A stretch of DNA of 39,362 nucleotides, from positions 1 through 39,362 of IMG/VR virus record IMGVR_UViG_3300035670_000568. The stretch is one strand, 5' to 3'. The first letter of the stretch is position 1; each line of letters opens with the position of its first letter. Of the stretch, positions 3 through 39,224 are shown in pieces. The stretch comes from a virus. The notes beneath the pieces were generated by a model. That model was not told the DNA's origin and did not search any database. It saw only the letters and a list, made by a program, of their open reading frames with translations. The translations under genes were made by a program, and so were the position numbers.

Positions 3-575
3 GATTCAGAGGGTAAGATTTACAAAGATTGGCAATTTATTGACGAAATACCTCACGAAGCAAGACTAGAGAGGAGAGGTTTGGACTTTGGATACTCAAA
101 CGACCCTTCAGCACTTGTAGAAATCTATTATTACAACGGAGGATATATCCTAAATGAGCAACTTTACCAAAAGGGCATGTCAAATAAACAAATAGCGGAT
201 TATATTATGAACTTAGAGTTCCCTTCAGTCATGGTTGTAGCAGATTCCGCAGAACCTAAGTCAATAGATGAGCTTAGAAGCTACGGAGTAAACGTAATGC
301 CAGTCTTAAAAGGCAAAGATAGCGTTACTCAGGGGATACAATTCGTTCAAGACCAGAGAATTAGCGTTACAAAGCGTTCTACGAACCTAATTAAAGAGTA
401 TAGGAACTATTTGTGGGAAGTTGACAAAGATGGTAAGATAACAAATGAACCATCGCCTATCTTTAATCACACGATGGATGCAATCAGGTATGGGTTTGAT
501 GCACTTAGGAAGGTTGATACTAGCGAGTTTGACCTACCTAACGACCAAAAGATGTTTCAGGGTGGATTTTACTAA
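3..575 (+). CDS. terL: Terminase large subunit, C-terminal nuclease part (5' partial)
   Basis: The frame is open from the first bases of the window, so this is the 3' end of a larger gene; about 190 residues are visible. The segment matches the RNase H-like nuclease domain of phage large terminases: LDFGYSNDPSA supplies the first acidic residue on a beta strand, VVADSAEPKSIDEL the second, and NHTMDAIRYGFDAL near the C-terminus is the usual final acidic helix. In the family this domain cuts concatemeric DNA during packaging, while the N-terminal ATPase, missing here, drives translocation into the head. It is followed directly by head genes and the portal, the normal packaging order. An internal TTG at 81 could be mistaken for a start, but upstream codons in frame also read as terminase sequence. 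Confidence 0.9.
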   Translation, partial: DSEGKIYKDWQFIDEIPHEARLERRGLDFGYSNDPSALVEIYYYNGGYILNEQLYQKGMSNKQIADYIMNLEFPSVMVVADSAEPKSIDELRSYGVNVMPVLKGKDSVTQGIQFVQDQRISVTKRSTNLIKEYRNYLWEVDKDGKITNEPSPIFNHTMDAIRYGFDALRKVDTSEFDLPNDQKMFQGGFY

Positions 576-923: not shown

Positions 924-1095
924 ACAGTTAGAAGAACCATCAATGACCTGCCTAAAGTGTAACAGGGAATACACAGTTAGTGATAATAATCTACTGTATG
1001 GACTCTTTAGAAATGAAAGGTTAATGAGATGTGCAAAATGCTTTGAAGAAATGAAACATAAGTTCTGGCTATCGCTAATGGAACAAGGGGCTTGA
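913..1095 (+). CDS. Small zinc-ribbon protein, 60 aa
   Basis: Two Cys-x2-Cys knuckles (CLKC near residue 13 and CAKC near residue 40) are spaced as in a zinc ribbon. The ATG at 913 lies just before the previous frame ends. The stop codon TGA overlaps the -35 box of the promoter for the portal gene, so this is the last gene of the upstream unit. Tiny zinc ribbons of this kind are common in phages and may bind nucleic acid or RNA polymerase; nothing here fixes the role. Confidence 0.65.
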   Translation: MSYKQLEEPSMTCLKCNREYTVSDNNLLYGLFRNERLMRCAKCFEEMKHKFWLSLMEQGA

Positions 1096-1120
1096 CAAAT
1101 TAATTAGCACTTGATAGCAT
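1092..1120 (+). promoter_or_regulatory. Promoter for the portal/head unit
   Basis: A perfect TTGACA (1092-1097) is followed by a 17-base spacer and TAGCAT (1115-1120). The -35 box overlaps the stop codon of the zinc-ribbon gene. The box and the following AAT recur in front of two other structural genes, at 19985 and 25643, with the same spacing. Predicted start is near 1127. Confidence 0.75.
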
Positions 1121-1134
1121 TATGTTGCTAAATA

Positions 1135-1182
1135 TCCGCAAAAATAAGCGGAAATAGGCACTCGTAATTGAGTGCTTTTTTT
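1135..1182 (+). promoter_or_regulatory. Two-hairpin leader with T7 tract ending at the portal ATG (copy 1)
   Basis: Hairpin 1 pairs TCCGC (1135-1139) with GCGGA (1148-1152). The conserved octamer ATAGGCAC follows at 1154-1161. Hairpin 2 pairs GCACTC (1158-1163) with GAGTGC (1170-1175) and runs into seven Ts (1176-1182) that abut the ATG at 1183. The shape is that of an intrinsic terminator, yet it lies downstream of the promoter and upstream of the start codon. It may attenuate, may insulate from upstream transcription, or may act as a spacer bringing AGG close to the AUG. Confidence 0.7.
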
Positions 1183-3036
1183 ATGGAAGTAAAACAAGAA
1201 ATTAAGACAAGACGACAACTGGCAGAGGATTACTTATCTACTAAAAGAGATTCATGGGATAACGCAGAACAACTTTTTCATGGTCAGGTTAATGATAATG
1301 TCTCCCAAACCACCAAATCACAAGTATTTGACCCCAAGTTATCCACATTAGCGATTGAAAGGTCTTATAGAGTAATGGCCCAACTCCCAACAGGTAAAAT
1401 TAGAGGCATTTCTAAGAATGATATAGGTGGAGCCATGCTTAAAAACCTAGTTTTAGAAAAATATGTTATACCAAATGCTAATGCACAGTTTGACTTCTTA
1501 ACTAAGATGAGAATGATGGACTTATACTCCAATATCTACGGAAATATGTTCTCTTTGATAGATTGGGATGTAAAACCAAATGGATATGTAGGCCCAGACC
1601 TATGGATTTTAAATATTAGAGATGTTTTTCCACAAATCGGTGCAGTATCCTTAGAAGATTCAGATTATGTAATTACTAGAACCTGGAAACCAATTTCTTA
1701 TTTTGAAGGATTAAAAGAAAAAGATGGATTTACTAACTTAGATAAGATAATCAGGGACTTAAAAAACAAATCTGGTTCTAAACACGCAAGAAATCAGGCA
1801 ACAAGCATTTCCCAAAGAGAAAGTAATGAATATCCATATCAACAACCAGCTAAAGGTGCAGGATACTACGAAGTACTTTCAATGTTTGAAAGAGACAGAT
1901 GGGTTGATTATGTAGTAGATGCAGACGAAGTCTTCAGAGATAGAAAAAATCCACACGATGACGGAGACCTTCCAGTTAAATGCAAATATTCAATTCCACT
2001 TTTAGATGACTTTATGGGTATGTCAGACTTTGAAAGAGGAGCATCCATGCAAAAAACCATCAACTCAGCTTGGAATCTTTACTTAGATGCAGTCAAAATG
2101 TCTATTTTTCCTCCAATTTTGATAAATAAGGACAATATTGCTTCTATGAGTTCAATTTCACAAACAGCAGCAGCTAAATGGCTAGTTAGAAACCAAATCT
2201 CAAATGCTGCAACACCTTTACAGCTTTCTCCACAGGGTATTCAAACCTTTAATAATGTTTATCAGGTCGCTACAGCCTCAATTTTGAACCTATTTGGAAC
2301 AACTGAAACACAGACTACAGCACAAACAGACCCATCATTCGGAAGGACTCCACAAGCCCTAAAGATGCAAGGACAGAGAGAAAATACCAGAGATAACGCA
2401 GATAGGTTCTATATGGAGTCTTATATGGGTCAAGTAATGAAAAAGTTCTGCACGTTACTCTCAAAGAAGCAGTCTAGTGCAATTCAGATTAGAATGTTTG
2501 AGGAAGAAATTGAAGAAATAGGTAGAAGCTATCCAGATATAAATGAAAACTACAATGAAGATACTGGAAAACTCTCAATCAAGAAAGATTCAGGACTTTA
2601 TGATTATGAAGTTGTACCAGGTTCTACTTACTTAGTTGACCAACAGCAACAACAACAAAATATGGGAAATCTTCTAACACTTTTCCAGCAAGCTCAAACA
2701 CCACAGGGAAATCTTTTACAGATGAAATTAAAAGAAGAAGGTTATGATTTTAAGTTTGGTGAGTTGATGAAAAGAATAGTTAGTAATTCTGGTATTCAAG
2801 ATTGGGATAAGATATTAGTAGAGATGACTCCAGCAGAAGTTGGAGACGAAGTTTTAACAAATGATGCTAACCAGTTCCAACAGGCTATTATGCAGATGAA
2901 TAGCAATCCTAATGAAACTCCAGCGATGCCAGGTCAACCTCAACAAGGTGGAATGCCTCAACCACCTCAACAAGAACCACCTGAACAGAATCCAATGGGT
3001 GTAAGTCCAATAGGTAATACTGGATTTGTACAATAA
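1183..3036 (+). CDS. Portal protein
   Basis: A protein of about 617 residues directly after terminase, in the size range of portals of N4-gp56-capsid phages. Portals form the dodecameric ring at the packaging vertex through which DNA enters and leaves. Sequence supports this only generally: an N-terminal alpha-helical region, a central mixed domain with many aromatic residues (WILNIRDVFP, YYEVLSMFERDRW), and a Gln/Pro-rich, probably disordered C-terminus from about residue 570. A Gln run (VDQQQQQQNMG) sits near residue 490. I chose ATG 1183 rather than the in-frame TTG 1168, because the TTG lies inside the leader hairpin and 1183 gives a normal N-terminus (MEVKQEIK). There is no adjacent Shine-Dalgarno; the start is preceded by seven Ts. 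Confidence 0.82.
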   Translation: MEVKQEIKTRRQLAEDYLSTKRDSWDNAEQLFHGQVNDNVSQTTKSQVFDPKLSTLAIERSYRVMAQLPTGKIRGISKNDIGGAMLKNLVLEKYVIPNANAQFDFLTKMRMMDLYSNIYGNMFSLIDWDVKPNGYVGPDLWILNIRDVFPQIGAVSLEDSDYVITRTWKPISYFEGLKEKDGFTNLDKIIRDLKNKSGSKHARNQATSISQRESNEYPYQQPAKGAGYYEVLSMFERDRWVDYVVDADEVFRDRKNPHDDGDLPVKCKYSIPLLDDFMGMSDFERGASMQKTINSAWNLYLDAVKMSIFPPILINKDNIASMSSISQTAAAKWLVRNQISNAATPLQLSPQGIQTFNNVYQVATASILNLFGTTETQTTAQTDPSFGRTPQALKMQGQRENTRDNADRFYMESYMGQVMKKFCTLLSKKQSSAIQIRMFEEEIEEIGRSYPDINENYNEDTGKLSIKKDSGLYDYEVVPGSTYLVDQQQQQQNMGNLLTLFQQAQTPQGNLLQMKLKEEGYDFKFGELMKRIVSNSGIQDWDKILVEMTPAEVGDEVLTNDANQFQQAIMQMNSNPNETPAMPGQPQQGGMPQPPQQEPPEQNPMGVSPIGNTGFVQ

Positions 3037-3368: not shown

Positions 3369-3570
3369 AGATAAACCAGAGGAGGAAATACTTGATTTCA
3401 CAAAACCAGATTTTGACTTTGTCCCTAAAGGAGTTCACGAATGGAGACAGCAGGGTTACTACATCATTTGTAAGTCCTGCGACCTTGAACACGCAAGTTG
3501 GATTGGAGCGAATCAAATACTCGTTGGTATCAAAGAATCAGGTTTACCAATTTTAAAGGTTAGGAGTTGA
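3349..3570 (+). CDS. Hypothetical protein with CxxC motif, 73 aa
   Basis: Starts with GTG at 3349 and overlaps the previous gene by 20 bases. After a charged N-terminus, the second half (YYIICKSCDLEHASWIG) has a Cys-x2-Cys followed by a His, a possible single zinc knuckle. A competing frame at 3365-3556 lacks this and looks like a shadow. Function unknown; context is head assembly. The gene ends in the first stem of the structured leader that precedes the scaffold gene. Confidence 0.6.
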   Translation: MEEKKNEDKPEEEILDFTKPDFDFVPKGVHEWRQQGYYIICKSCDLEHASWIGANQILVGIKESGLPILKVRS

Positions 3571-3640
3571 GTGTCTTTCCAAATACACTTAACTCTTAGT
3601 CTTTAAGACTAACGTTTCATCGCACTACGAAACAGGTGTG
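3564..3640 (+). promoter_or_regulatory. Structured leader of the scaffold gene: two hairpins and a possible H-type pseudoknot
   Basis: Three structures lie in a row. GAGTTGAGTGT (3564-3574) pairs with ACACTTAACTC (3585-3595), 11 pairs with one G-U. TTAGTCT (3596-3602) pairs with AGACTAA (3606-3612). GTTTC (3614-3618) pairs with GAAAC (3629-3633), and its loop CGCAC (3621-3625) can pair with GTGTG (3636-3640), giving an H-type pseudoknot. A strong Shine-Dalgarno, AAGGAGGTGA (3645-3654), follows at once. No promoter was seen, so this is an internal leader that could act in processing, mRNA stability or translation control of the highly expressed scaffold/capsid genes. Confidence 0.55.
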
Positions 3641-8349: not shown

Positions 8350-9959
8350 TCCCTGCAAGAAACGAGGAGTTCTTAGGAAAAACAATACAAAACATACTAG
8401 AAAACATAGAAGGAAAAACAGAAGTTATTGCTGTTTGTGATGGATATACAGACCCTATTCCTGAACTTCCACAAGACCCTAGAGTTAAAGTTATAGTGCT
8501 ACCTAAGTCAATCGGTCAACGAGCAGCAACTAATTTGGCTTGTAAAATGAGTACTGCTAAATATGTAATGAAGTGTGATGCCCATGTAGCTTTTGATAAA
8601 GGGTTTGATGTAAAGATGATAACCGAGATGCAGGATGATTGGACAATGGTACCAACTATGAGAAACCTACATGCTTTTGATTGGGTTTGTAGAAACGGAC
8701 ACCGAAGGTATCAGGGTCCAAGTGGTGGATGTTTAGAATGTGGCAAGTCTACTAAGAAAGAGATTCTTTGGATTGGAAAGACTAGTCCACAAAGTAATGG
8801 ATACAGGTTTGATACTGATATGCACTTTCAATATTGGCCAGAGTTAGCCAAGAGACAAGAGGGAGATATTATAGAGACTATGTCTTTACAGGGAAGTTGC
8901 TTTATGTTGACCAGAGAAAAGTATTGGGAGTTGGATATTTGTAGTGAGGAGTTCTATTCTTGGGGACAACAAGGAGTGGAAGTAGCTTGTAAGACTTGGC
9001 TTAGTGGTGGAAAAGTGATGGTTAATAAGAAGACTTGGTATGCACACATGTTCAGAACACAGGGTGGAGACTTCTCATTTCCTTATGAACAGTCTGGTAA
9101 GGAAGTAGTTGCTAATAGAGAAAAAAGCAAAGAGTTATTCAGAGACAACAAGTGGCCTAAAGCAGTTCATGACTTTCAATGGTTATTAGATAGGTTTAAT
9201 CCGCCAGGTTGGGAGAATAAAACTAAAGGAATACTCTACTACTCAGATAATAGACTAGAGCCTAAGATAATGACTAGAGTACAAGAACAGCTTAAATTAA
9301 TCGGATTACCTATAACAAGTGTAACCCTACTTCCTACTGATCTTGGAAATAACATTGTTTTACCTTTAGAAAGAAGTTATCTAACAGTAGCAAAGCAAAT
9401 CGTTACAGGGTTGGAGAGTATGAAAGAGGATATAGTTTACTTTGCAGAACATGATGTACTCTATCCAAAGGAACATTTTGATTTTGATGGTTACGAGAAT
9501 AATGTCTACTACTACAATACAAACTCTTGGTTTCTAAGAGCCAAGGATGGACATTGTCTCTATTATAATCACAGAAGCCTAAGTGGTATGAGTTGTTACA
9601 GAGAGACAGCGTTAAATCACTTTAAGGAAAGGGTAAGAAGAATTGAAGCATTAATCGCAGAAGCAGAACAAAATGGCGGTAAAGTTAGGTCTTTAAAAGA
9701 CACCTCAACATTTGTATCATTAAAAGAGGGAATCCATAGACTTGGATTTGAACCAGGTACTCATTCAAGACCAGATAGAATTGATACATTACCTGCTAAG
9801 AATTACCAATCTAGTGTTCCTACAGTTGATATTAAACATGGAAATAATCTTACACAAGCAAGGTTTAGAAAAGACCAATTTAGAAATGAAAGAAGTTATG
9901 AAGGATGGAAAGAATCTGATGAAATCCCATTTTGGGGGAAAGGTAGGGATATAATTTAA
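8331..9959 (+). CDS. Two-domain glycosyltransferase with inserted zinc knuckle, 542 aa
   Basis: The N-terminal domain is family 2-like (DLSILIPARNEE, then KCDAHVAFDKGFD with DAH at 83-85) and is paralogous to the product of 6484, sharing TWLSGGKVMVNKKTWYAH. Between them an insert carries Cys120, His124, Cys134 and Cys137 (CRNGH, CLECGK), a probable zinc-binding loop absent from the shorter paralogue. From about residue 300 a second region (GILYYSDNRLEP, IVYFAEHDVLYPKEHF) looks like another GT-A-type fold, with AEHD in the place of a metal motif. It probably makes a disaccharide step or recognises its acceptor. The start overlaps the dehydrogenase stop; the end overlaps the mucin-like tail gene by one base. 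Confidence 0.75.
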   Translation: MDLSILIPARNEEFLGKTIQNILENIEGKTEVIAVCDGYTDPIPELPQDPRVKVIVLPKSIGQRAATNLACKMSTAKYVMKCDAHVAFDKGFDVKMITEMQDDWTMVPTMRNLHAFDWVCRNGHRRYQGPSGGCLECGKSTKKEILWIGKTSPQSNGYRFDTDMHFQYWPELAKRQEGDIIETMSLQGSCFMLTREKYWELDICSEEFYSWGQQGVEVACKTWLSGGKVMVNKKTWYAHMFRTQGGDFSFPYEQSGKEVVANREKSKELFRDNKWPKAVHDFQWLLDRFNPPGWENKTKGILYYSDNRLEPKIMTRVQEQLKLIGLPITSVTLLPTDLGNNIVLPLERSYLTVAKQIVTGLESMKEDIVYFAEHDVLYPKEHFDFDGYENNVYYYNTNSWFLRAKDGHCLYYNHRSLSGMSCYRETALNHFKERVRRIEALIAEAEQNGGKVRSLKDTSTFVSLKEGIHRLGFEPGTHSRPDRIDTLPAKNYQSSVPTVDIKHGNNLTQARFRKDQFRNERSYEGWKESDEIPFWGKGRDII

Positions 9960-12900
9960 TGGCAGTATCATACGTCAACGCTTCTACTGGTGCAGCAGAC
10001 GCTGGTGGAGCTTTTACAATTACAGGAATGACCCCTGCTCAGGCTGGGAATATTATTATCCTTCAAATCTTGCAGGATGGTACTACTGATGGTGCAGTAA
10101 CTCAAACTTCTGCAACTAACATCACAGCCTTAGATGGAACAGCTAATACTTGGACAGCAATAGGCGAGTATCAGGTGGGTAATGCCGAGAGTGGTCGGCA
10201 ATACCTGTGGGTAGGGCGGTCAACAGGGACTTCTGCTCCTACATTTACAGGTGGTAACTCAACTTCTGAGGATGTGTTTGCTAGGATGTATGAGTTTTCA
10301 GGAGTGGATGCAAACGCTACAACCGTAGCTGGGATTTTAGAAAACGCAACTGCTGGAACTATTGGCAGTGCATACAACACTTCTACTACCTGTTCTGATG
10401 TTTCCGTTCAGACTACCTACGCTGGCGGTATGGCGTTAAACTTCGTTGCTCTTTCAGATGACGCTATGGGACTGGCTGTTTTCGATGGAGAAACTGGTGG
10501 AAACTGGCAACTCACCCCTGATGTTTATTCAGACAATGCTGGAACTGATGGAACTATCGCTCTGATGAGAGCTGAGATGGCTTCTGCTGGTACGATAGAT
10601 GGTGGTTCGGACACAATAACTTCTATTGGCTGGGGAGTAATAGGTTTTGCTCTTATCCCTGAACTTTCTCCTACAGTTGCTCTCTCAACTCCTAATGATA
10701 CAGCCACAGGTGTAAGCGTAACTCCTGCTCTAGTCTTTACAGGAACAGACGGTAATGGTGATGAGGTGGAATATGAGGTACAGGTGGATACGAGTAGTGG
10801 GTTTGATAGTTTAGGGAGTCCATCTGGTGTAAATACATATTATATTGATGCTTCGGATGCAGCTGCTTCAGGTCTTGCTTGGACAGATAATGCAAATGCT
10901 TTTGATGGCTCTACTAGCACTAACGCATATACAACAAATACTGGCTCAACATCTTCTAACTTTTTAAAAGCAGAAGGAACAAATGCTCCAACCGCAACTA
11001 CGCCAATTACACAGGTTAGAGCAAGGGTATATCATAGTTGTGGTGGAGGAGGAATGGACACAACAAATGTTGCAATTTATACGGATGCATTGGGTGAGTT
11101 ACTTGGAACAATATCGGCTACAACTCCATCAACTGCTGGGTGGTCTAGTTATACTACATTATCAACTCCATCTGGTGGTTGGACTTGGGCAAAAGTTCAG
11201 GCAATAGAAACAAAAATATATATAACAAATGAGGCTACACATACTCCAAGAATATACAGAGTTGATATAGAAGTTACATCTACTGGCATCCCTCTCCTCG
11301 ACATCCTCTCCTCCACCGATGATGATGCTAATTTTGAGTGGACTGTGTATCCCGACACTCATCCGTATGATAGTGGACACCCGATAACTTATACCATACC
11401 TAGTGCTAGTGAATTAGACGCTTCTACTGAATACTTTTGGAGAGTTAGAGCTATTGACCCTCTAGGAAGTAATACTTGGGGTAGCTGGGCGACTACGAGG
11501 AGTTTTACAACTCAAACTGCGGGTTCTGAATCTCCATCTGTTTCACCTTCGGTTTCACCCTCAACCAGTGCTTCAGCATCGGCTTCTTCTAGTCCCAGTC
11601 CAAGCGCTTCTCCATCTATTTCTCCATCAGCAAGTCCAAGTGTAAGTCCTAGTGTATCAGCTTCTACATCAGCGTCAGCTTCACCATCACCTTCTGCTTC
11701 TCCTAGCGCCTCACCTTCTCCATCTAGTTCACCATCTGCTAGTGAGTCTCGTAGTCCTTCAGCGTCTCCTTCTGTAAGTGCGTCAGCTAGTGCATCGGCA
11801 AGTCCTTCTCCATCAGCATCGCCAAGTAGTTCACCAAGTAGTGTTGAATCTGAATCTCCATCAGCATCTCCTAGCCCATCCGCTAGTCCCTCAACATCAG
11901 CGAGTGCTTCTGGAAGTGCATCGCCTAGTGTATCTCCATCAACTAGTGCTTCTGCTTCTGAATCTAGGTCTCCTTCATCAAGTCCGAGTCCAAGTAATTC
12001 ACCTTCTGTAAGTAGTTCAGCATCACCTAGTAGCTCTCCATCGCCTAGTGCGAGTCCTAGTACAAGCGAATCTCGTTCACCAAGTGCCTCACCATCACCA
12101 AGTGCCAGTCCATCTACTTCATCTAGTGCATCAGCTTCAGCTTCGCCATCGCCTTCGGCTAGTCCCAGTATCTCTCCTAGTGCATCTGCTTCGGCTAGTG
12201 GTTCTGCGTCTCCAAGTAGTAGCCCTTCACCGAGTGCATCGCCCAGTACAAGTTCGTCAGCGTCAGCGAGTGCAAGTCCTTCACCATCGGCCAGTCCGAG
12301 TACCAGTTCTTCGGCTTCAGCTAGTTCGTCTCCTAGCCCAAGTGCTTCTCCAAGCACGTCAGCAAGTGCGTCTAGTAGTACCAGTCCTTCAAGTAGTCCA
12401 TCATTAAGTTTTGGTAGTGAATCACCCTCTACTTCAGCTTCTACCTCACCTAGCCCTTCTGCTTCGCCATCTGTTAGTGCTAGTACAAGTGCTTCTAGCT
12501 CTCCTTCTCCTAGTGCCTCTCCCTCGGTTAGTGCAAGCACTAGTGCATCTGCTTCTCCAAGCCCAAGTAGTAGCCCAAGCGTGTCTGCTAGTAGTAGTGC
12601 TAGTACTTCTATATCAGCAAGTCCATCAAGTTCACCATCTTTGGGAACACCATTCTGGTATTTAGCTTCATCTTTAACTATAGGAAATGGTTCTATTACT
12701 TCAGGAACACTATCAGATACTTACACAGACGATGGTAATATATTAGTCTTAGGAGAAACTGGAACAGGTTTTACTTATGATTTTACATTCGGAGAGAATG
12801 ACCCAGTACCAACTCCACATGTAGATATCTATTTTAGAGCTTGGTATGATGGAAATCCTGCACACAATATAAGAATACTTCAAAAGAATTGGACATCTGG

Positions 12901-13297
12901 ATTATGGGAATACTTAACTGGAGAAACAAATGATTTTCCACAATCAGAAACAGAACAGGATTTTGAGTTTTTCTTAATAAATGGAGCTGATTATATTCAA
13001 GATGGCAAAGTACAAATAAGAATACAACATCCAACTGGTGGTTCACCATTACATCAATTTCATATTGATAGAATGTGGTTACAAACTGGTGGTGCTTCTC
13101 AATCAGTAAGTGCTTCGCCTTCTATATCGCCAAGTGCTTCGGCAAGTACATCACCAAGTCCTAGTGCCAGTCCTAGTGGAAGTATATCGGCTACGCCCTC
13201 AGCCTCACCTAGTGCAGCACAATTAGAGAAAAAGATTATACTTGTAGATGGTAAATTAGCATTGAAATTATCACATGGATTTTATATAAGTATTTAA
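9959..13297 (+). CDS. Large virion protein with mucin-like Ser/Pro/Ala tract (tail fibre or appendage)
   Basis: 1112 residues. Residues 1 to about 250 form a Thr/Ala/Gly-rich beta domain of the type found in phage and bacterial surface proteins. Residues from about 250 to 520 include a fibronectin/Ig-like part (TEYFWRVRAIDPLGSNTWGSW). Residues from about 523 to 893 are an almost uninterrupted Ser/Pro/Ala tract (SPSVSP, SASPSPSASP units). A globular beta domain (about 895-1045, SLTIGNGSITSGTL to HIDRMWLQTGG) follows, then a short second Ser/Pro tract (about 1048-1085) and a tail. Such tracts are extended and, in other systems, O-glycosylated. Flanking glycosyltransferase genes suggest it may be their target. 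No signal peptide, consistent with a virion protein. Confidence 0.7.
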   Translation: MAVSYVNASTGAADAGGAFTITGMTPAQAGNIIILQILQDGTTDGAVTQTSATNITALDGTANTWTAIGEYQVGNAESGRQYLWVGRSTGTSAPTFTGGNSTSEDVFARMYEFSGVDANATTVAGILENATAGTIGSAYNTSTTCSDVSVQTTYAGGMALNFVALSDDAMGLAVFDGETGGNWQLTPDVYSDNAGTDGTIALMRAEMASAGTIDGGSDTITSIGWGVIGFALIPELSPTVALSTPNDTATGVSVTPALVFTGTDGNGDEVEYEVQVDTSSGFDSLGSPSGVNTYYIDASDAAASGLAWTDNANAFDGSTSTNAYTTNTGSTSSNFLKAEGTNAPTATTPITQVRARVYHSCGGGGMDTTNVAIYTDALGELLGTISATTPSTAGWSSYTTLSTPSGGWTWAKVQAIETKIYITNEATHTPRIYRVDIEVTSTGIPLLDILSSTDDDANFEWTVYPDTHPYDSGHPITYTIPSASELDASTEYFWRVRAIDPLGSNTWGSWATTRSFTTQTAGSESPSVSPSVSPSTSASASASSSPSPSASPSISPSASPSVSPSVSASTSASASPSPSASPSASPSPSSSPSASESRSPSASPSVSASASASASPSPSASPSSSPSSVESESPSASPSPSASPSTSASASGSASPSVSPSTSASASESRSPSSSPSPSNSPSVSSSASPSSSPSPSASPSTSESRSPSASPSPSASPSTSSSASASASPSPSASPSISPSASASASGSASPSSSPSPSASPSTSSSASASASPSPSASPSTSSSASASSSPSPSASPSTSASASSSTSPSSSPSLSFGSESPSTSASTSPSPSASPSVSASTSASSSPSPSASPSVSASTSASASPSPSSSPSVSASSSASTSISASPSSSPSLGTPFWYLASSLTIGNGSITSGTLSDTYTDDGNILVLGETGTGFTYDFTFGENDPVPTPHVDIYFRAWYDGNPAHNIRILQKNWTSGLWEYLTGETNDFPQSETEQDFEFFLINGADYIQDGKVQIRIQHPTGGSPLHQFHIDRMWLQTGGASQSVSASPSISPSASASTSPSPSASPSGSISATPSASPSAAQLEKKIILVDGKLALKLSHGFYISI
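11527..12642 (+). repeat. Ser/Pro/Ala-coding low-complexity repeat tract
   Basis: About 1.1 kb of degenerate repeats of codons for Ser, Pro and Ala, based on the units AGT/TCT/TCA/AGC with CCA/CCT/CCC. Codons vary freely between units, so selection is on the protein, not the DNA. Long spurious frames on both strands come from this bias. Related shorter tracts lie at 13105-13217, 13800-14164 and 31255-31325. Confidence 0.9.
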
Positions 13298-13298
13298 T

Positions 13299-14228
13299 AT
13301 GTTAAGAAAAAATATTTGGTCATCAGGAGATTCTTTACCAACAATGACTGTTGATTTAAACAGTAATGCTAGTAATACTTCTTCCTTTTCTGTTGTCTCT
13401 GACTATATTCAGTCAACATTTACTTTAACTGGTGGTGGTAATCAGTATAGATATGTTGACATGTCTTCTATTACTGATTATGTAGTTCAATCTGGAGATT
13501 ATTTGGAGTATTATGTTTATTGGGAAACCGCAGGTGCAATATTACAAGCTGTAGATTTAAGATGTAGTGATGCTACTACATTGAGAGATTCTGGTATTAC
13601 AGACCAAAATAGTGTTGCTGCTCATCCAAGTACAGATATCTCTGCTAGATGTTCTGGTACCTGGTATCATAGGAAGTTTAATATCGGAGCCTGGGCTGGA
13701 AAAACAATTCAATATTATGACATAGCATCAGAGTTTGATAGTACTGGAGCAAAAATAGCTAGATTTAAGGATATTGCAATTACAGATGGAAGTGGAGCTG
13801 GTTCAGCTTCCCCATCTACAAGCCCATCATCCTCTCCCTCAGTTAGCCCTTCTGCTAGTGCTTCAAGAAGCCCAAGTGCTTCTATTAGTCCATCCGCTAG
13901 TGTATCTCGTTCTCCAAGTGCTAGTCCAAGCCCTAGTGCTAGTCCATCTGTATCTCCATCGGCATCACCATCTCCTTCTAGTAGTCCTTCGTCAAGTCCT
14001 AGTATTAGTCCTAGTGCTTCAGTTAGTCGTTCTCCTTCTACGTCATTATCTCCATCGGCTTCAATATCAAGGTCTCCATCTACGTCAATAAGTCCTTCTA
14101 CCTCACCAAGTAAGAGTCCATCGTATAGTCCTAGTGCTAGTCCGAGTGCGAGTCCTAGTCCTGCACCTACATATAGACAATATCCAAGACAAAAGTTTTA
14201 TTCAAGATATTTCAGAAGGTTTAGATAG
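13299..14228 (+). CDS. Second mucin-like virion protein, 309 aa
   Basis: Starts two bases after the previous gene. Residues 1 to about 165 form a beta-rich domain (YRYVDMSSITDYVVQSGDYLEYYVYW, IARFKDIAITDGSG) resembling a carbohydrate-binding or jelly-roll fold. Residues from about 168 to 289 are Ser/Pro/Ala repeats like those of the larger neighbour. A short basic tail (YRQYPRQKFYSRYFRRFR) ends the protein and could anchor it to another surface. Likely a tail or head appendage paired with the 1112-residue protein. The stop is followed directly by the promoter of the sugar cassette. Confidence 0.65.
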   Translation: MLRKNIWSSGDSLPTMTVDLNSNASNTSSFSVVSDYIQSTFTLTGGGNQYRYVDMSSITDYVVQSGDYLEYYVYWETAGAILQAVDLRCSDATTLRDSGITDQNSVAAHPSTDISARCSGTWYHRKFNIGAWAGKTIQYYDIASEFDSTGAKIARFKDIAITDGSGAGSASPSTSPSSSPSVSPSASASRSPSASISPSASVSRSPSASPSPSASPSVSPSASPSPSSSPSSSPSISPSASVSRSPSTSLSPSASISRSPSTSISPSTSPSKSPSYSPSASPSASPSPAPTYRQYPRQKFYSRYFRRFR

Positions 14229-17445: not shown

Positions 17446-18173
17446 GAAAAGTAGCATTTGTGCCAGTAGCAGACAGTCATTATTACCCAGAGGGGACGCA
17501 TATAATGATTAACTCGTTCAAGAAGTATCATCCTGATATAGATTTGGTGATTTTTAGACAGGATGTGGTAGATAAGCTCTTTAGGGAAAAGGGAATTAAT
17601 TGGTATAACGCCAAACCTTACTTTGCACAGCTTTTAGAAGATAAATACGACCTAATAGTGAATATGGATGCAGACCATATCGTTACAGGTAGAATGAGTG
17701 AGATATTTGACAAGGTAGATTATGAAGTAGCAGGGCCTTGGAACTTCAATGACTATGAAAACGCTAGCTTTGACCACATAACCGAGGAAATGTATGTACA
17801 GGGCGGCATGATAGCCTCTACTTCTCATGATTTCTGGGCCAAGTGGAGAGAAGCCAACAAGGATGCTATGAAATACCTAAGAAAAGAGAATGATGTAATG
17901 AACTTAGTCATCTACGACAACAAGTTTAACCTAAAGATAGTAGATAAGGAAAAAGACTACTATGGATGCAAGAGTTTAGGTAGAGAACCAGAGTTCTATG
18001 TAGAGGGAGACAAAACTATGTGCAGGGGAGAGCAGGTATTTGCTTATCACTTCGCTAGAGGCGGACAATTTCCTAAACTAGACATACCTAATATGCCATT
18101 AGTTGATGAAGTTAAGTATCTTTGGACACAAATAGCAACATACGGACAGAGTTTTAAAGCAGTAGCAATATGA
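17442..18173 (+). CDS. GT-A glycosyltransferase (GT8-like), 243 aa
   Basis: DLIVNMDADHIVTGRMSEIF contains a DxD motif (DAD) in the context typical of GT8-type and related enzymes, following a first strand KVAFVPVADSHYYP. A His block near the C-terminus (VFAYHFARGG) fits the second metal ligand. Retaining or inverting chemistry cannot be decided. Overlaps both neighbours by four bases. Likely adds one sugar of the cassette's glycan. Confidence 0.75.
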   Translation: MRKVAFVPVADSHYYPEGTHIMINSFKKYHPDIDLVIFRQDVVDKLFREKGINWYNAKPYFAQLLEDKYDLIVNMDADHIVTGRMSEIFDKVDYEVAGPWNFNDYENASFDHITEEMYVQGGMIASTSHDFWAKWREANKDAMKYLRKENDVMNLVIYDNKFNLKIVDKEKDYYGCKSLGREPEFYVEGDKTMCRGEQVFAYHFARGGQFPKLDIPNMPLVDEVKYLWTQIATYGQSFKAVAI

Positions 18174-18922: not shown

Positions 18923-19995
18923 AGATTTATACACTTCCTAGCCACACTACAAAAGAAAAAACCACAGGTGTAGATTTCGCTAGAATGATACAACCTATGA
19001 CACATCTTAATGGATATAAAAATGTTAAATCTATAGTTTATGACCCCAAAGAAGAAGAAAAACACAACAATCCTATGGAATGGGTAAATGTTATGAAAAA
19101 TAATGATATATTCTACTTCAATTATTTAAACAATCCATGGGGATTTGCAGCTATGGGTATGATGGCTAGAAAGTTTGGTGTTAAACTGGTAATGGATTTG
19201 GATGACTCCTTGTGGGATATACATCCAGATAATCCAGCCCATGCAGTCTATAAGAAAGGTTCACCAGAATTGAAGAACTTTACAGCTATTTGTAACGAAG
19301 TTGACTATATAACCTGTACTAATGACTATTTAAAGAATGTAATCATCAACAACACGAACAAAACACCAGATAAGATAAAGGTTTTACCTAACTATATTGA
19401 CCTAAAAAGGTACAAATACACTCCTAAACCTAATGATTTTGATGAAATAGTTATTATGCACTTTGGAAGCACTACTCATTTTATGGATTTGGTAGAAACA
19501 GAGTTTGCTAGAGGCATGGAGAGGATTATGAAAGAATACCCAAATGTAGTATTTAAGACTGTAGGAGCTAATATTGCACCATTTAAGGAAAAATGGGGAG
19601 CAAAATACGAACAATTATTTGGTCATGAAGACATAAATGGTTGGATTGACACTAAGTTTGAGGGATTTATGAAAGACGCAGATATTATCGTAACACCATT
19701 AGTTGATGATATTTATAACAGATGTAAGTCAAATATTAAGTGGTTAGAGGCTTCAAGTGCTAAAAAACCAGGTGTTTGGGCAAAAATTAGACAATATGAG
19801 GAAGTTATTGACGGAACTAATGGAATATTGGCCAAAAAAGACACAGAATGGTACAAAGGAATCAAATATTTAATAGATAACAAGGATAAAAGAGACAAAA
19901 TGGGAGAAAAAGCCTACAAAGACGTACAAAAGCACCAAATACAAGACCATTTAGAAGAATATTATCAATTCTTTAAAATGATACTTGACAAATAA
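18919..19995 (+). CDS. Glycosyltransferase family 4-like (GT-B), 358 aa
   Basis: MKIYTLPSHTTKEKTTGVDFARM begins a GT-B N-domain, with KLVMDLDDSLWDIHPDNP in the middle. The second half has KVLPNYIDLKRY, the usual donor-site strand, and ADIIVTPLVDDIYNRCKSNIKWLEASSAKKP, where the conserved donor Glu is in the WLEASS helix. Family 4 enzymes transfer sugars with retention. Last gene of the cassette; its final codons overlap the -35 box of the next promoter. Confidence 0.8.
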   Translation: MKIYTLPSHTTKEKTTGVDFARMIQPMTHLNGYKNVKSIVYDPKEEEKHNNPMEWVNVMKNNDIFYFNYLNNPWGFAAMGMMARKFGVKLVMDLDDSLWDIHPDNPAHAVYKKGSPELKNFTAICNEVDYITCTNDYLKNVIINNTNKTPDKIKVLPNYIDLKRYKYTPKPNDFDEIVIMHFGSTTHFMDLVETEFARGMERIMKEYPNVVFKTVGANIAPFKEKWGAKYEQLFGHEDINGWIDTKFEGFMKDADIIVTPLVDDIYNRCKSNIKWLEASSAKKPGVWAKIRQYEEVIDGTNGILAKKDTEWYKGIKYLIDNKDKRDKMGEKAYKDVQKHQIQDHLEEYYQFFKMILDK

Positions 19996-20013
19996 TTTTG
20001 GCAGTATTATGAT
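19985..20013 (+). promoter_or_regulatory. Promoter of the internal-protein unit
   Basis: TTGACA (19985-19990), 17-base spacer, TATGAT (20008-20013). The -35 box lies inside the last codons of the glycosyltransferase gene. Same arrangement and following AAT as the promoters at 1092 and 25643. Confidence 0.78.
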
Positions 20014-20020
20014 TTAATTG

Positions 20021-20072
20021 CTAATGCTAACATTGTATTAGATAGGCACAGCTATTTATGCTGTGTTTTTTT
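20021..20072 (+). promoter_or_regulatory. Two-hairpin leader with T7 tract (copy 2)
   Basis: Hairpin 1 pairs CTAAT (20021-20025) with ATTAG (20037-20041). The octamer ATAGGCAC follows at 20042-20049. Hairpin 2 pairs CACAGC (20047-20052) with GCTGTG (20060-20065), then seven Ts (20066-20072) and ATG at 20073. An in-frame ATG at 20058 lies inside the hairpin and is unlikely to be the start. Confidence 0.7.
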
Positions 20073-21131
20073 ATGATTAATCATTCAAATTACGAAGGTA
20101 GATTCAACAATAAAAGAGTAATGTGGCTAAACCAGTTTGACGCTTTATTTAATTTAGGTAGTAATCCTACATCAGCTTCATCTGGTTCAATGACTTTTAC
20201 TCCAACTACAACAGCAGCACCAGGAGGTAATTGGACTCCTCCAATTACATCTAGTGGTGGGGATGGAGGTGGTGCTACTGGCGGTACTCAAACAACTACA
20301 AATACTGGTGGTACTTCTGGTGGTACTTCTAATCTTTCACTTAGACAACAAATGGAACAGGGCATTATTCCTTGGGATGATAATTTGCTTAATTCAGGTG
20401 AACAAACTAGTCAAAGTGATGAAGAAGCAAGATTAAGAGGAGAAATTGGTGGAGCTTGGGATGCTTATATTCAGAGTTTAGGTACCTTAGAAGGTGATAT
20501 TGTTAATTCAAAATCTGCTCAAATGAATACAGTTAATACTAATTTAGAGCATAATAACCAATTAGTTAATAATCAGAGTGCATCTTCATTAAAAGACCTT
20601 CATAATCAAATGAGAAATGCTTTTCAGGCAGGAAATACTCAGCTTGGAGCATTCGGAGCTGGAGATAGTTCAGCAGCTAATATGTATGGATACGCTATTA
20701 ATAGACAGGGTTTAAGACAAGCTGGAGATTTACAAACTCAAACTCGTAATGCTTTAATGGAAAATAAATATCAAGCTGATAATGCTTTAAATGGAATTGC
20801 TCAATGGTTTTCAGAAAAACAAATACAATTAAAGCAAATGATTGCAGAAGGTTCACTAAACAAAGCTAAAGATATAGCAGCACTTTCTAAAAGTTTCTTA
20901 GACCAAGCTATTGCACAAGCTAATGCAGTTACTCAAAATAGAACGAATAGAGAAAATGCTATTATAGAATGGGCTACAGCTAATTCTACAAATATGGCTC
21001 AATTATCTCAAAATATCTCTCAAATACCAGGAATTATAAGCCAAATAAATGGTACATTTACTACTCCAAAAGGCGGATATGTTCCAAATACTCAACAAAA
21101 AGAAAAAGAAAAAAATAGTTTATTTGGTTAA
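20073..21131 (+). CDS. Probable internal virion protein with coiled coil, about 352 aa
   Basis: The N-terminus (about residues 25-85) is rich in Ser, Thr and Gly and probably disordered. From about 105 onward it is helical with many Gln and Asn residues (QMNTVNTNLEHNNQLVNN, QAIAQANAVTQNRTNRENA), a heptad-friendly composition. It directly precedes a 1502-residue protein and shares its promoter. In podoviruses such pairs are internal core or ejection proteins; this is inference from context. ATG 20073 follows the T7 tract; ATG 20121 (MWLNQFDALF) is an alternative. Confidence 0.6.
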   Translation: MINHSNYEGRFNNKRVMWLNQFDALFNLGSNPTSASSGSMTFTPTTTAAPGGNWTPPITSSGGDGGGATGGTQTTTNTGGTSGGTSNLSLRQQMEQGIIPWDDNLLNSGEQTSQSDEEARLRGEIGGAWDAYIQSLGTLEGDIVNSKSAQMNTVNTNLEHNNQLVNNQSASSLKDLHNQMRNAFQAGNTQLGAFGAGDSSAANMYGYAINRQGLRQAGDLQTQTRNALMENKYQADNALNGIAQWFSEKQIQLKQMIAEGSLNKAKDIAALSKSFLDQAIAQANAVTQNRTNRENAIIEWATANSTNMAQLSQNISQIPGIISQINGTFTTPKGGYVPNTQQKEKEKNSLFG

Positions 21132-24100: not shown

Positions 24101-25646
24101 AGCTAAGGCTACTACTCATTATTCTGGTACTGGGAGTAAGTTTGGATTTGGCAACAAACAACCATATTATTTATTCCATGAACCAAAAACAGGAGTAACT
24201 AGAAAAGTAAGTAATGTTTTATTTAAGCCTTTACAGATAGTTGAAACTTGGAAAAATGATGTATTTGCTTCAGCAGCAGAAAGTAAAGCTAAAAGATTAG
24301 GTTTAGAGGGTAAACAGCTTTATGATTTTGTTAGAGATGAAGTATATAGATATGCTCATTTAGCAGATGAGTTTAATACACCATTATTGATGAAAAATCA
24401 CGCTTCAGCTAGATTAGCACTTCAGTATTCACAATATTTCTTAAAACATTTTGCTAGAGATTACTACGATACAATTAAGGGTGGAGAAAATAAACAAGCA
24501 GCAGCTTATTTAGCGTCAGATTTATTAGTGGCAGCAACTCTAATGACAGTAGCTGGAGTTACTTGGGATAGAGCTATTTCTGGACTATTTCCAGCAGGAT
24601 TCGGACCAATCTTTACAACAATAGGAGATTTTGTGGAACACGCACAGGGTTTACAAAAAGCAGCAGAAGAAGGTAGGAGTACTGCTTATCATCAGGAACA
24701 ACTAACTAATACAGCTATTAGAAATCTAGTTCCAGCAGGTTCTCAAATAATGAAAACTGGTGGTATGGTAAATCAATTATTACAAGGATATGAAACTTCG
24801 CCTACAGGTTTAGTTCAATATAAGGCACCAACAAATATGCTTGAAGTGGGTCAAGGATTAATATTTGGTAAAGGGGCAATTAAATCAAGTAAAGACTTCT
24901 ATAAAGATGGTGGTAAAGAGTTAGGAAAAGACCAATCTGAAGTATTTAAGGCTATATATAAAAATAATCCAGATGAAGCTATTAAGTATATGACTGATTT
25001 GAGAAGACAAGCTGCTGAAAGCAAAGCTGGTAGGGATTTATTAGAAGGTAAAGAAATCAAAGGAGATGTTAAACTAGAAGAAAAAACATATAAGATTGAT
25101 GGAACAGATTTTGAAGGATATAAAATAGGTAATAAGTTTTATTATATAGATGAGTTTGGTGAACAAACATCTAAAAGAGTTGATGTTATTGAAAAACAGC
25201 AAAGAAATGAAGAAAAAGGAATTGCTGATGCAACTTATTCGCTGGTAACAGATAGGCAAAAAAGAGAAGATGATATTGAAGGCTGGGTTGATACTACCGA
25301 AAAGTATATTGAATATTTAACCGAATACCAAAAGAAGTTAGATACAGTTAAAGAGGCTAAGGAAATAATTACTACACAAAACAAGATTGAAGATTTACAA
25401 GATAAATTAAAAACTTATAAGAGTTATGGTGGATTTAGTAAACCTAAAAAAGCTCCTAAGATAAGTATTCCCAAAATATCATTCTCTAAGCCTAAATCAA
25501 GCACAATTAAATGGAGTACACCTAAGATGAAAAAACTGTCTTTGGCTCCAACTAAAACTTATACAGTTTCTTCTGCTCCTAAAGTAAAACCATTTAAAGT
25601 TAAAAAGATGAGGGTTAAGTTTAGTTCTAGACCATTTCTTAGTTGA
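21138..25646 (+). CDS. Very large putative internal/ejection protein, 1502 aa
   Basis: Mostly helical and charged, with a hydrophobic N-terminal stretch (ASYGVLFKNIPGAVSHLF). Two candidate membrane segments lie near residues 1125-1165 (AYLASDLLVAATLMTVAG and SGLFPAGFGPIFTTIG). The block around 950-1110 (NIGLNLKTAALQGTEIFRAF, LKHFARDYYDTIKGG) resembles the large internal or polyvalent proteins of podoviruses. The C-terminal 60 residues are strongly basic with repeated SKPK/KAPK/KIS units, suited to DNA binding inside the head. A role in DNA ejection across the cell envelope is plausible, not proven. No lytic transglycosylase motif was seen. Its stop codon overlaps the next promoter. Confidence 0.6.
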   Translation: MTLKDIQSFTNNLFNQGVKSVQKAAPHIEQGIRDLPASYGVLFKNIPGAVSHLFRNPQEAADFARSTPQYSNFKLPGLQTLANFSANSGQSFGSGVKNVGGGINRIQTTDGLFNKVAGAGQIVKGISQAVTPFTPLFDAVNLGASLPQTGLPGTGKAQRLAAGLTQGIGLDDTLAPNIKRKESVRFDVLGNKIGIDPFMDAGRMVGFVKNPANQKLFQITEKVFPAGQLFEKGTSLKRWLGTTALRGSVEDIFLFMDQMPKNATNEQKLLFMSQLAVQGAASEVVGRGVLQTLGKGNRIIKNRTESVKNNKMVIDAFDALRKLSTPIYTKDPKTGKRITTRFYQVEAEKLAKKAAEKLKIDNERGAINPDLLTGGAARPLAKILDSKRFGEFDAYKDIKTRVDLENSGNVNYKQEKTYSKLDWYAKESGLAEEKIAEIADTFLGKEDKKSLTKMWKALYEALPPEKKITAPQWVKDWKEADETLTQTEPQGVPSAKLKPQDAQLTTPTAGLPQGYRYADYDEIKQNFDEYDEGVMENRLPNGKWIVDNEGTIHPLEDISKIYAKEKGGIVTQPSTPEVKVPEPQIDTSVKFSKRLPDRTTIDETNYVKTVDDTLSDFTQNELKPISDHITKNKLDKDIIRQLWDGELVTPPNKAYAKAVEMLKSANDELYEIRKGVRDLGYNPQMPRVWGTEVEDLMKFFENPYRNNPITPFLSDPHFLGKTGKGTGYITDPVEALNISAGSALREALKPLTKVQAEVKAKLDAGETVDWVDVANKSSDAPKIKIDYKLDDIAPIRTMNDIVEKTSGATKVGDTIQYKQKELFDAFRTLRDMDDIVYGLRKEVNNLIQTNQPKELIEYFIVKLGVPEANRAGFIKDSIRDINTKGIQDYAFGIMNRYTKQFPLQNFMEVLGKYEFTNGKTKQFFNDFVEEQRIKQNFETQLGEKIINALTTTFSWANIGLNLKTAALQGTEIFRAFARYNPQDVAKGIAKATTHYSGTGSKFGFGNKQPYYLFHEPKTGVTRKVSNVLFKPLQIVETWKNDVFASAAESKAKRLGLEGKQLYDFVRDEVYRYAHLADEFNTPLLMKNHASARLALQYSQYFLKHFARDYYDTIKGGENKQAAAYLASDLLVAATLMTVAGVTWDRAISGLFPAGFGPIFTTIGDFVEHAQGLQKAAEEGRSTAYHQEQLTNTAIRNLVPAGSQIMKTGGMVNQLLQGYETSPTGLVQYKAPTNMLEVGQGLIFGKGAIKSSKDFYKDGGKELGKDQSEVFKAIYKNNPDEAIKYMTDLRRQAAESKAGRDLLEGKEIKGDVKLEEKTYKIDGTDFEGYKIGNKFYYIDEFGEQTSKRVDVIEKQQRNEEKGIADATYSLVTDRQKREDDIEGWVDTTEKYIEYLTEYQKKLDTVKEAKEIITTQNKIEDLQDKLKTYKSYGGFSKPKKAPKISIPKISFSKPKSSTIKWSTPKMKKLSLAPTKTYTVSSAPKVKPFKVKKMRVKFSSRPFLS

Positions 25647-25671
25647 CAAATATGAAAAATAAGAATATGAT
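25643..25671 (+). promoter_or_regulatory. Promoter of the connector/tail unit
   Basis: TTGACA (25643-25648) overlaps the TGA stop of the large internal protein. A 17-base spacer and TATGAT (25666-25671) follow. Third member of the shared promoter-leader design. Confidence 0.8.
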
Positions 25672-25684
25672 TATATTACCAAAG

Positions 25685-25731
25685 CCCACAAGAGTGGTGG
25701 GATAGGCACAGTTTAAAGCTGTGCTTTTTTT
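25685..25731 (+). promoter_or_regulatory. Two-hairpin leader with T7 tract (copy 3)
   Basis: Hairpin 1 pairs CCCAC (25685-25689) with GTGGG (25697-25701). ATAGGCAC follows at 25702-25709. Hairpin 2 pairs GCACAG (25706-25711) with CTGTGC (25719-25724), then seven Ts (25725-25731) directly before ATG 25732. Confidence 0.72.
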
Positions 25732-26400
25732 ATGGCAGCAGTAATTACAACATTAGATGACGCAATACAGAAGTTAAACACTCTTTATAACGGGAGTACA
25801 GATGTTCCTGTTGATGGAGATGAAGATTATGAAGTGTGGAAAGACTTATTGAATGCAGCAATAAATATCTGGGAAAAAGAAGAAGGGATACTTTGGAAAC
25901 AATTATTTGTTAACGTAACTTCAGCATCTACTGGAGATAAGGCTACAGATGGCGGTAATTCTTATTCTCTACCAAGTGATTTTGTATTTCCTAATTCAGC
26001 TTATGTTTGGCTAGGAACAGGAACCACAAAATTAGCTTATAAAGTAATCAGGATTGAAGACAAGCAACTCTATGAAAATGATTCAGGAGATTGGTGTTAT
26101 TTCACAGGAACTACATTAGAGTTTAATCCCAATATAACCATAGATTCAGGCTCTACAATAAACTATTCTTATTACAAAAAGGCTACTGCACTTTCAACAT
26201 CATCAAGTACATTTGAAATGACAGACCCTATGTTTGCGGTCTATTATGCTCTATCTGAGCTTAAAAAAGAGGAAGGTGATACATCAGCTTTAACGATTGC
26301 TACTCAAAAACTAGATGCTATGAAAACCATCAATAGTATGACCTCGGAACATCAAGATAACGGATTTATAGATGTTAACACAGAGGGATTCGGGATATGA
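25732..26400 (+). CDS. Head-tail connector-like protein (tail tubular A-like?), 222 aa
   Basis: The N-terminus ITTLDDAIQKLNTLYNG and the mostly helical fold with WKDLLNAAINIWEKEEGILW resemble phage connectors and the tail tubular A group of podoviruses, which bridge portal and tail. Recognition is by pattern and context (small, before a large tail protein), without a decisive motif. The ATG directly follows the T7 tract, without an adjacent Shine-Dalgarno. The stop overlaps the next start (ATGA). Confidence 0.55.
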   Translation: MAAVITTLDDAIQKLNTLYNGSTDVPVDGDEDYEVWKDLLNAAINIWEKEEGILWKQLFVNVTSASTGDKATDGGNSYSLPSDFVFPNSAYVWLGTGTTKLAYKVIRIEDKQLYENDSGDWCYFTGTTLEFNPNITIDSGSTINYSYYKKATALSTSSSTFEMTDPMFAVYYALSELKKEEGDTSALTIATQKLDAMKTINSMTSEHQDNGFIDVNTEGFGI

Positions 26401-38842: not shown

Positions 38843-38984
38843 TAGTCAATTTGAGGCTAATTTTCTTATCTTGTCTTGCTTTTACACCAAGTTTTGATAT
38901 TTCTTTTAGTCGTTGGTATTCTTGTGGGGATTTTCTTTTCTCCCAAGATAGTTTGGCTAGTTCTACTGCAAATTGATTTTTCAT
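38826..38984 (-). CDS. Small basic protein, 52 aa, first gene of the minus-strand operon
   Basis: The product (MKNQFAVELAKLSWEKRKSP...) is basic and helical with no defined domain. It starts at 38984, immediately after a good -10 box, with no room for a ribosome site, so its mRNA should be leaderless. The stop lies inside the promoter of the next gene. Place and charge suggest a small regulator, by analogy with leaderless repressors such as lambda cI from PRM. Confidence 0.55.
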   Translation of the reverse strand: MKNQFAVELAKLSWEKRKSPQEYQRLKEISKLGVKARQDKKISLKLTIDNQA

Positions 38985-38990
38985 AGTTTT

Positions 38991-39020
38991 ATATTATCAT
39001 ACGTTAGATATACTTGTCAA
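38991..39020 (-). promoter_or_regulatory. Divergent minus-strand promoter
   Basis: TTGACA (complement of 39015-39020) and TAATAT (complement of 38991-38996), with an 18-base spacer; GATAAT two bases upstream is an alternative. Its -35 box is the same DNA as that of the plus-strand promoter at 39014. Confidence 0.62.
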
Positions 39021-39042
39021 CTATTGACTTATATGTTATAAT
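39014..39042 (+). promoter_or_regulatory. Strong plus-strand promoter with extended -10
   Basis: TTGTCA (39014-39019), 17-base spacer, TATAAT (39037-39042) preceded by TGT, an extended -10. Transcription should start near 39049. The palindrome GTCAACTATTGAC (39016-39028) overlaps both divergent -35 boxes and could be an operator. Confidence 0.8.
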
Positions 39043-39045
39043 ATG

Positions 39046-39128
39046 GTCGTGGTAAGTCTGATTGTCCCTTTAGGCGTGGGTTGCACCACGACAAATCAGA
39101 CGCAACCCATACCTAAGGGGATTTTTTT
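39046..39128 (+). promoter_or_regulatory. Leader RNA with three mutually interleaved helices and T7 tract
   Basis: GTCGTGGT (39046-39053) pairs with ACCACGAC (39085-39092). GTCTGATT (39056-39063) pairs with AATCAGAC (39094-39101). A long helix joins 39065-39084 with 39102-39121, 19 of 20 pairs including two G-U and one C-A mismatch. The order is A-B-C-A'-B'-C', so all three cross. The long hairpin ends at seven Ts (39122-39128) and ATG 39129, and it buries the SD-like AAGGGGA (39115-39121). The predicted transcript start (about 39049) may trim helix A. Confidence 0.75.
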
Positions 39129-39224
39129 ATGGATTCAATTTTTATTGCATTATTAGTTTTAACAATTCCTACAATTTTGGTTTATGCCTATCAATTATTA
39201 TTTAAAAAAGTCGTAGGGGGTTAG
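39129..39224 (+). CDS. Small membrane peptide, 31 aa
   Basis: The product (MDSIFIALLVLTIPTILVYA...) is one hydrophobic helix with a short basic end (KKVVGG). It follows the structured leader and its T7 tract directly. Too small for a family call; it could be a membrane regulator or toxin-like peptide. Its size also leaves open that it is only a leader peptide. Confidence 0.5.
   Translation: MDSIFIALLVLTIPTILVYAYQLLFKKVVGG

Follow-up and report, generated by a model that had tools for sequence, protein, structure and literature searches.

A phage leader with three crossing helices and a terminator-like hairpin: a candidate transcription attenuator with a layout that recurs in related phages

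The sequence analyzed here, referred to as the window, is a 39,362-base linear virus record (IMGVR_UViG_3300035670_000568), the left end of which is cut inside a terminase large subunit gene. Two large open reading frames (ORFs) with long Ser-Pro-Ser-Ala-Ser repeats occupy positions 9959–14228. Our subject is a leader 300 bases short of the right end, where a leftward gene cluster gives way to a rightward promoter. This promoter is a strong one, with 11 of 12 consensus matches and an extended −10, and the position of the −10 places the probable transcript start near 39049. A divergent leftward promoter (TTGACA-16-GATAAT, 38984 to 39020, minus strand) adjoins the ATG of a 52-codon ORF, so that its mRNA would have little or no leader. 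Rightward, the leader runs into a T7 tract and an ATG, and the window ends 138 nt past the short ORF opened there.

Three helices can be drawn in the leader (Table 1). Helices A and B are each 8 nt long and 100% complementary, whereas helix C spans 20 nt with 85% Watson-Crick pairing, or 19 of 20 pairs when G-U is allowed. All three cross one another, and the arms were recovered exactly where the original prediction had placed its two 8-base helices and one 19/20-pair helix. That prediction had also described the hairpin loop as almost entirely complementary to the 5′ segment 39046–39063, and the 17-nt loop (39085–39101) does consist of A′, one nucleotide, and B′; AAGGGGA is likewise present in the 3′ strand before U7-AUG, as had been noted. 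The feared shortening of helix A is borne out by the promoter position, since a start near 39049 would remove three of the eight A pairs and leave 5 bp in the RNA. Hairpin C has the form of an intrinsic terminator, a GC-containing stem of 20 positions followed by at least six T (here seven), and its folding z-score is −4.5; near the U-tract the stem opens with G-T and A-T pairs. A terminator-finding tool missed it because the 17-nt loop exceeds the tool's loop limit of 8.

Table 1. Features of the window leader, of related leaders, and of simple leaders in the window
Feature	Coordinates	Strand	Description
Sigma70-type promoter	39014–39042	+	TTGTCA 39014–39019, 17-nt spacer, extended −10 TG 39034–39035, TATAAT 39037–39042
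Arm A	39046–39053	+	Only 39049–39053 (GUGGU) expected in RNA, from predicted start
Arm B (GUCUGAUU)	39056–39063	+	5′ strand of proposed antiterminator
Arm C	39065–39084	+	5′ strand of terminator-like hairpin
Arm A′	39085–39092	+	In hairpin loop; alternative partner CGUGG inside arm C
Arm B′	39094–39101	+	In hairpin loop; 3′ strand of proposed antiterminator
Arm C′	39102–39121	+	3′ strand of terminator-like hairpin; contains AAGGGGA (39115–39121)
T7 tract of terminator-like hairpin	39122–39128	+	Immediately 5′ of ATG 39129
31-codon ORF (MDSIFIALLVLTIPTILVYAYQLLFKKVVGG)	39129–39224	+	Starts at T7-ATG; hydrophobic; no family match; translated by eye
L110 leader	2240–2385		A CGCAAG, B GATTAAAC; ABC order
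L243 leader	60–215		A TCTTGGG, B TTTCGTAGGAG; ABC order
L196 leader	17650–17806		B GTATTGCA, A weak; ABC order
L377 leader	about 2350–2525		One 11-bp loop helix; A absent
L232 leader	about 3400–3580	-	Nested loop helices A B C B′ A′ C′
L387 leader	2345–2490		Nested loop helices A B C B′ A′ C′; relative of L232
Simple leader	1092–1185	+	TTGACA promoter, small hairpin, terminator-like hairpin, T7 1176–1182, ATG 1183 of probable portal gene
Simple leader	19985–20075	+	TTGACA promoter, two hairpins, T7 20066–20072, ATG 20073
Simple leader	25643–25734	+	TTGACA...TATGAT promoter, two hairpins, T7 25725–25731, ATG 25732

Chance pairing as the source of A, B, and C was rejected by shuffling the whole window, by shuffling the loop, and by the 41-site comparison given below. 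With dinucleotide content preserved, 100 shuffles of the whole window gave topology scores of at most 37, against 40 for the native sequence. Loop shuffles gave an equally good crossing in 0 of 20,000 cases when the full upstream sequence was allowed. With the RNA taken only from 39049, the probability of two crossing loop helices was 0.00015, and the best single helix was B (p 0.002). Three crossing helices of an ABCABC topology are present in the sequence.

Relatives of the window were collected through a capsid search (75 viral loci) and a terminase search (80 further loci), and scripts scanned them for a hairpin followed by a T-run whose loop is complementary to an upstream segment, with no sequence similarity required. 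Six further leaders, in L110, L243, L196, L377, L232, and L387, share a layout in which a promoter is followed by a 5′ segment able to pair with the loop of a long hairpin, then by T6–7 and an ATG at once or soon after; those of L377 and L387 were found through replication-protein searches. The L110 terminase is 87% identical to that of the window. Sequences of the leaders are mostly unrelated, but those of L232 and L387 can be aligned, unlike most other members. Arm B reads CACGAATA/TATTCGTG in one and TACGTTTC/GAAACGTG in the other, and so has changed on both sides, with TGCCTA/TAGGCA kept. These two leaders also share AUGCCUAAA, UAGCACC, GGUGUAGGCA, and T6-GUU-AUG, which have no Rfam match and may represent a conserved RNA motif in their own right. 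The strict ABC-A′B′C′ order that had been predicted holds in four of the seven leaders (window, L110, L243, and L196, the last with its weak A) and fails in the other three, two being nested and one having a single loop helix. The conserved core of the design is B crossing C.

As an unselected set, every hairpin followed by T6 in the relatives (41 sites) was included regardless of loop complementarity, and each loop was shuffled. A crossing pair as good arose in 0 of 1000 shuffles for the window and for L243, with p 0.001 for L110 and 0.002 for L196, while the single helix of L377 gave 0 of 1000 and the nested pair of L232 p 0.008; these values are uncorrected for site number and come from rules and thresholds fixed after the first leaders had been seen, and the seven leaders in all make a small set. 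A promoter is present in all six of these, and the hairpin reaches at least 20 bp in five. Other sites were mostly unremarkable, with the exception of L234 (crossing p 0.002), which has no promoter.

Further searches added little. Viral contigs contained 74 stretches that match the A and B pattern exactly, none with complementary arms downstream, and a DNA search of a phage collection gave no match. Searches with a transglycosylase-like protein found no relatives, those with p118 only the L110 record, and those with the L243 methyltransferase mostly MT-A70 genes outside this phage group and no new leader. A capsid search of MAG contigs yielded three only, one of them binned as Chloroflexi. In G026/L210 a p119 relative is present and a leader of this class was not found, and the upstream regions of L383–L386, L388, and L389 contained no clear leader of this class when read. 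Upstream of distant replication genes, L389 carries a very long hairpin (about 2400–2460, ~20 bp, near-perfect) and L384 a 23-bp hairpin enclosing ~140 nt (about 2300–2490). H-type pseudoknot-like elements occur on the strand opposite the capsid genes in L079 (minus strand, 12540; GAGGCACGC / GCGTGCCTC) and L085 (minus strand, 18402; GGAGTCCC / GGGACTCC).

We then considered how the helices could follow one another in time, using minimum free energy (MFE) folds of growing transcripts, which are equilibrium, pseudoknot-free approximations. The B-B′ fold is the predicted MFE structure in the window from the appearance of B′ until nucleotide 69 of 74, and in L243 the antiterminator fold holds until nucleotide 116 of 119. 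Shuffles of the upstream segment matched or exceeded this delay of C in 5 of 100 cases for the window, 13 for L110, 0 for L243, 4 for L196, 0 for L377, and 10 for L232, and late takeover by C is only weak in L110 and L232. These snapshots predict a rival to the terminator fold that is able to form earlier, a competition kept in the six further leaders mostly without sequence similarity. B and B′ lie at the two ends of C, joined to it by linkers of 0–1 nt, so by simple geometry B-B′ and the full C helix look mutually exclusive, and we therefore favor competing folds over a static triple pseudoknot. The inner 5′ arm of C offers A′ a second partner in the window, L110, and L243, and A partly repeats that stretch (CGTGG, GCAAG, and GGGG, respectively). 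This alternative A′ pairing, together with a B-B′ helix enclosing the C 5′ arm, would fit a kinetic antiterminator.

We consider the leader to be probably a promoter-proximal transcription attenuator, with terminator and antiterminator folds, of a short phage transcription unit. RNA would begin near 39049, and as it emerges B would pair with B′, and A or inner C with A′, forming an antiterminator that encloses the C 5′ arm. The 20-position C-C′ helix would become more stable only once most of C′ had been transcribed. Its closure while RNA polymerase is still on T7 would terminate transcription just before the AUG, with the start site masked, whereas a B-B′ fold that persisted long enough would let polymerase read into the ORF at 39129. 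Polymerase speed, or a factor binding the 5′ segment or loop, would presumably set the balance. The switch proposed in the original prediction, in which the 5′ segment captures the loop, is supported as far as architecture and prediction go: the capture is possible, C is terminator-like, the layout recurs in six leaders, and the rival fold is the more stable in the MFE snapshots until most of the C 3′ arm is made. The underlying observation itself is confirmed.

A second part of the prediction, a buried ribosome site as the function, was not upheld. The purine-rich AAGGGGA is a possible ribosome site in the window only, and no clear Shine-Dalgarno sequence occupies that place in the other members. 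An ATG directly follows the T-run in the window, L110, L243, and L196 and lies within about 12 nt of it in L232, L387, and L377. In L243 this ATG opens a 282-codon MT-A70 DNA methyltransferase, and in L196 a 78-codon ORF preceding an O-like/DnaD-like replication gene, a relative of which follows the L377 leader. From our own reading of the sequences and a protein search, the L232 and L387 leaders also appear to precede a replication-type gene. The two closest leaders, those of the window and L110, are followed only by short ORFs, of 31 codons (with no relative) and 45 codons, respectively, and neither ORF gave a family match. Where the genes are identifiable, these complex leaders pair with replication or methyltransferase genes and simpler leaders with structural genes.

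Simple leaders place a promoter, hairpin, T7, and ATG in the same order, and three occur in the window (Table 1). The gene at ATG 1183 is probably the portal, named by its position and relatives and without a family match, and ATG 25732 opens an SU10-adaptor-like gene. All three contain a terminator-like element, AUAGGCAC...-T7-AUG. Dozens of relatives carry a simple leader, often at the portal gene. Across window and relatives we counted 55 non-redundant T6–9-ATG leaders with promoter-like sequence upstream; their terminal stems vary freely yet stay paired, a property for which the scan itself selects. In a scan that did not require an ATG, one followed the T-run directly at 13 of 29 promoter-hairpin-T6 sites of the relatives, and 74 unrelated viral contigs contained no promoter-hairpin-T6 site. 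In the simple leaders of L160 (minus strand, 18071–18126), L187 (minus, 4349), L189 (plus, 7370), and L195 (plus, 4317), the 5′ segment repeats the terminator 3′ arm (e.g., GGCGTC..GACGCC..GGCGTC), which would let the middle strand pair with either copy, as in a strand-sharing antiterminator.

This wider design bears on an alternative modeled on lambda Q or HK022 put: an antitermination factor from phage or host, loaded near the promoter, would let polymerase pass a hairpin-T7 terminator, with A and B secondary or part of the recognition signal. The window encodes a NinG relative, and in lambda NinG lies near Q. Such a factor would suit the four promoter-leader-terminator-like heads of this one genome and the dozens seen in relatives, as well as a T-run mostly 48–70 nt past the −10. 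Q-type systems position a terminator after the late promoter (PMC6606751), and in HK022 a 70-nt RNA with two stems, putL, comes directly after its promoter (PMC9378689). However, no Q-like protein was recognized among the subset of proteins scanned, the complex leaders share no common sequence signal, and the complementarity of the loop to the 5′ segment would be left unexplained, and we judge this reading unlikely. Like lambdoid Q late promoters (pR′-tR′), the window leader has a promoter-proximal terminator-like element ahead of phage genes; unlike them, the element recurs in relatives at several operons and abuts the AUG, and we know of no counterpart of the loop-to-leader pairing at those promoters. 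The put RNA of HK022 similarly forms the structured first ~70 nt of a phage transcript, but it is an antiterminator that binds RNA polymerase and has sequence common to putL and putR, whereas the element described here itself ends in a terminator-like hairpin and its sequence is not conserved.

The hairpin-T7-AUG could instead act mainly on translation or mRNA stability, as a 5′ stem before an unstructured U-rich start with no meaningful termination. The ATG does abut T7, usually without a Shine-Dalgarno sequence, compared with 25 of the 46 window genes checked that have a motif resembling one, and in many relatives the portal could plausibly start at the T7-ATG (with N-termini such as MEVKQEIKTR and MEITQEIKTR). 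We nevertheless find this improbable: a GC-containing stem abutting 6–8 T follows the canonical intrinsic terminator, a GC-rich hairpin and a 7–8-nt U-tract (PMC6606751), T-run length is kept, and in L187, L090, and L140 the T7-ATG ORF reaches a stop after a few codons, so this ATG does not serve as the main start in every case. We judge very improbable a true ABCABC pseudoknot ("pseudotrefoil") acting as a structural or protein-binding RNA, in which A and B would coexist with C or at least its inner half: it would account for the crossing order in four leaders of unrelated sequence, and by our own geometry the similar lengths of A and B and a C-A mismatch near the middle of C make a bundle with only inner C sterically conceivable, but A keeps 5 bp in the window, is weak in L196, and is missing from L377, the order is nested in L232 and L387, B-B′ looks sterically incompatible with full C, and A′ has an alternative local partner in C. 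The window leader has the three mutually crossing helices of that genus 1 topology, but the third helix is weak in this leader class and coexistence of all three is doubtful. Triple crossing is, as had been claimed, rare among known RNAs, with 51 ABCABC against 1688 ABAB sequences in RNA STRAND (PMC3390330).

The attenuator reading places the leader closest to attenuators and riboswitch expression platforms, with which it would share two competing leader folds, one of them an intrinsic terminator before a gene, and an antiterminator that forms first. Unlike those systems, the folds of the window leader share no strand but cross (B-C-B′-C′), there is no conserved ligand-binding sequence, and the start codon abuts the U-tract. 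An Rfam search for a known RNA family gave no match above the gathering score, and a targeted search of the open-access literature found no description of this leader design. Downstream of the L110 leader, a GCTAGGAAAGTCC stretch has an RNase P-like look and matched nothing in Rfam. Type III toxin-antitoxin loci combine a pseudoknot RNA, a terminator, and an ORF; a reading of that kind was set aside, there being no tandem repeats and no toxin-like ORF.

That related phages keep a competing-fold design despite fully changed letters suggests an undescribed kind of gene switch, widely used in this phage group. We tentatively go further, to a leader in which antiterminator and terminator are topologically interlocked and not strand-sharing, the most elaborate form being the ABCABC pseudotrefoil, in which crossing architecture and not sequence would be selected, and which would be part of a genome-wide system of promoter-terminator-U7-AUG operon heads; this broader proposal is possible but doubtful. 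If true, it would be a riboregulator kept by topology with its sequence almost free, and sequence-based RNA family searches would miss such elements. A common group of uncultured phages would then govern several operons through terminators directly 5′ of start codons, which would call for an antitermination mechanism as yet unknown.
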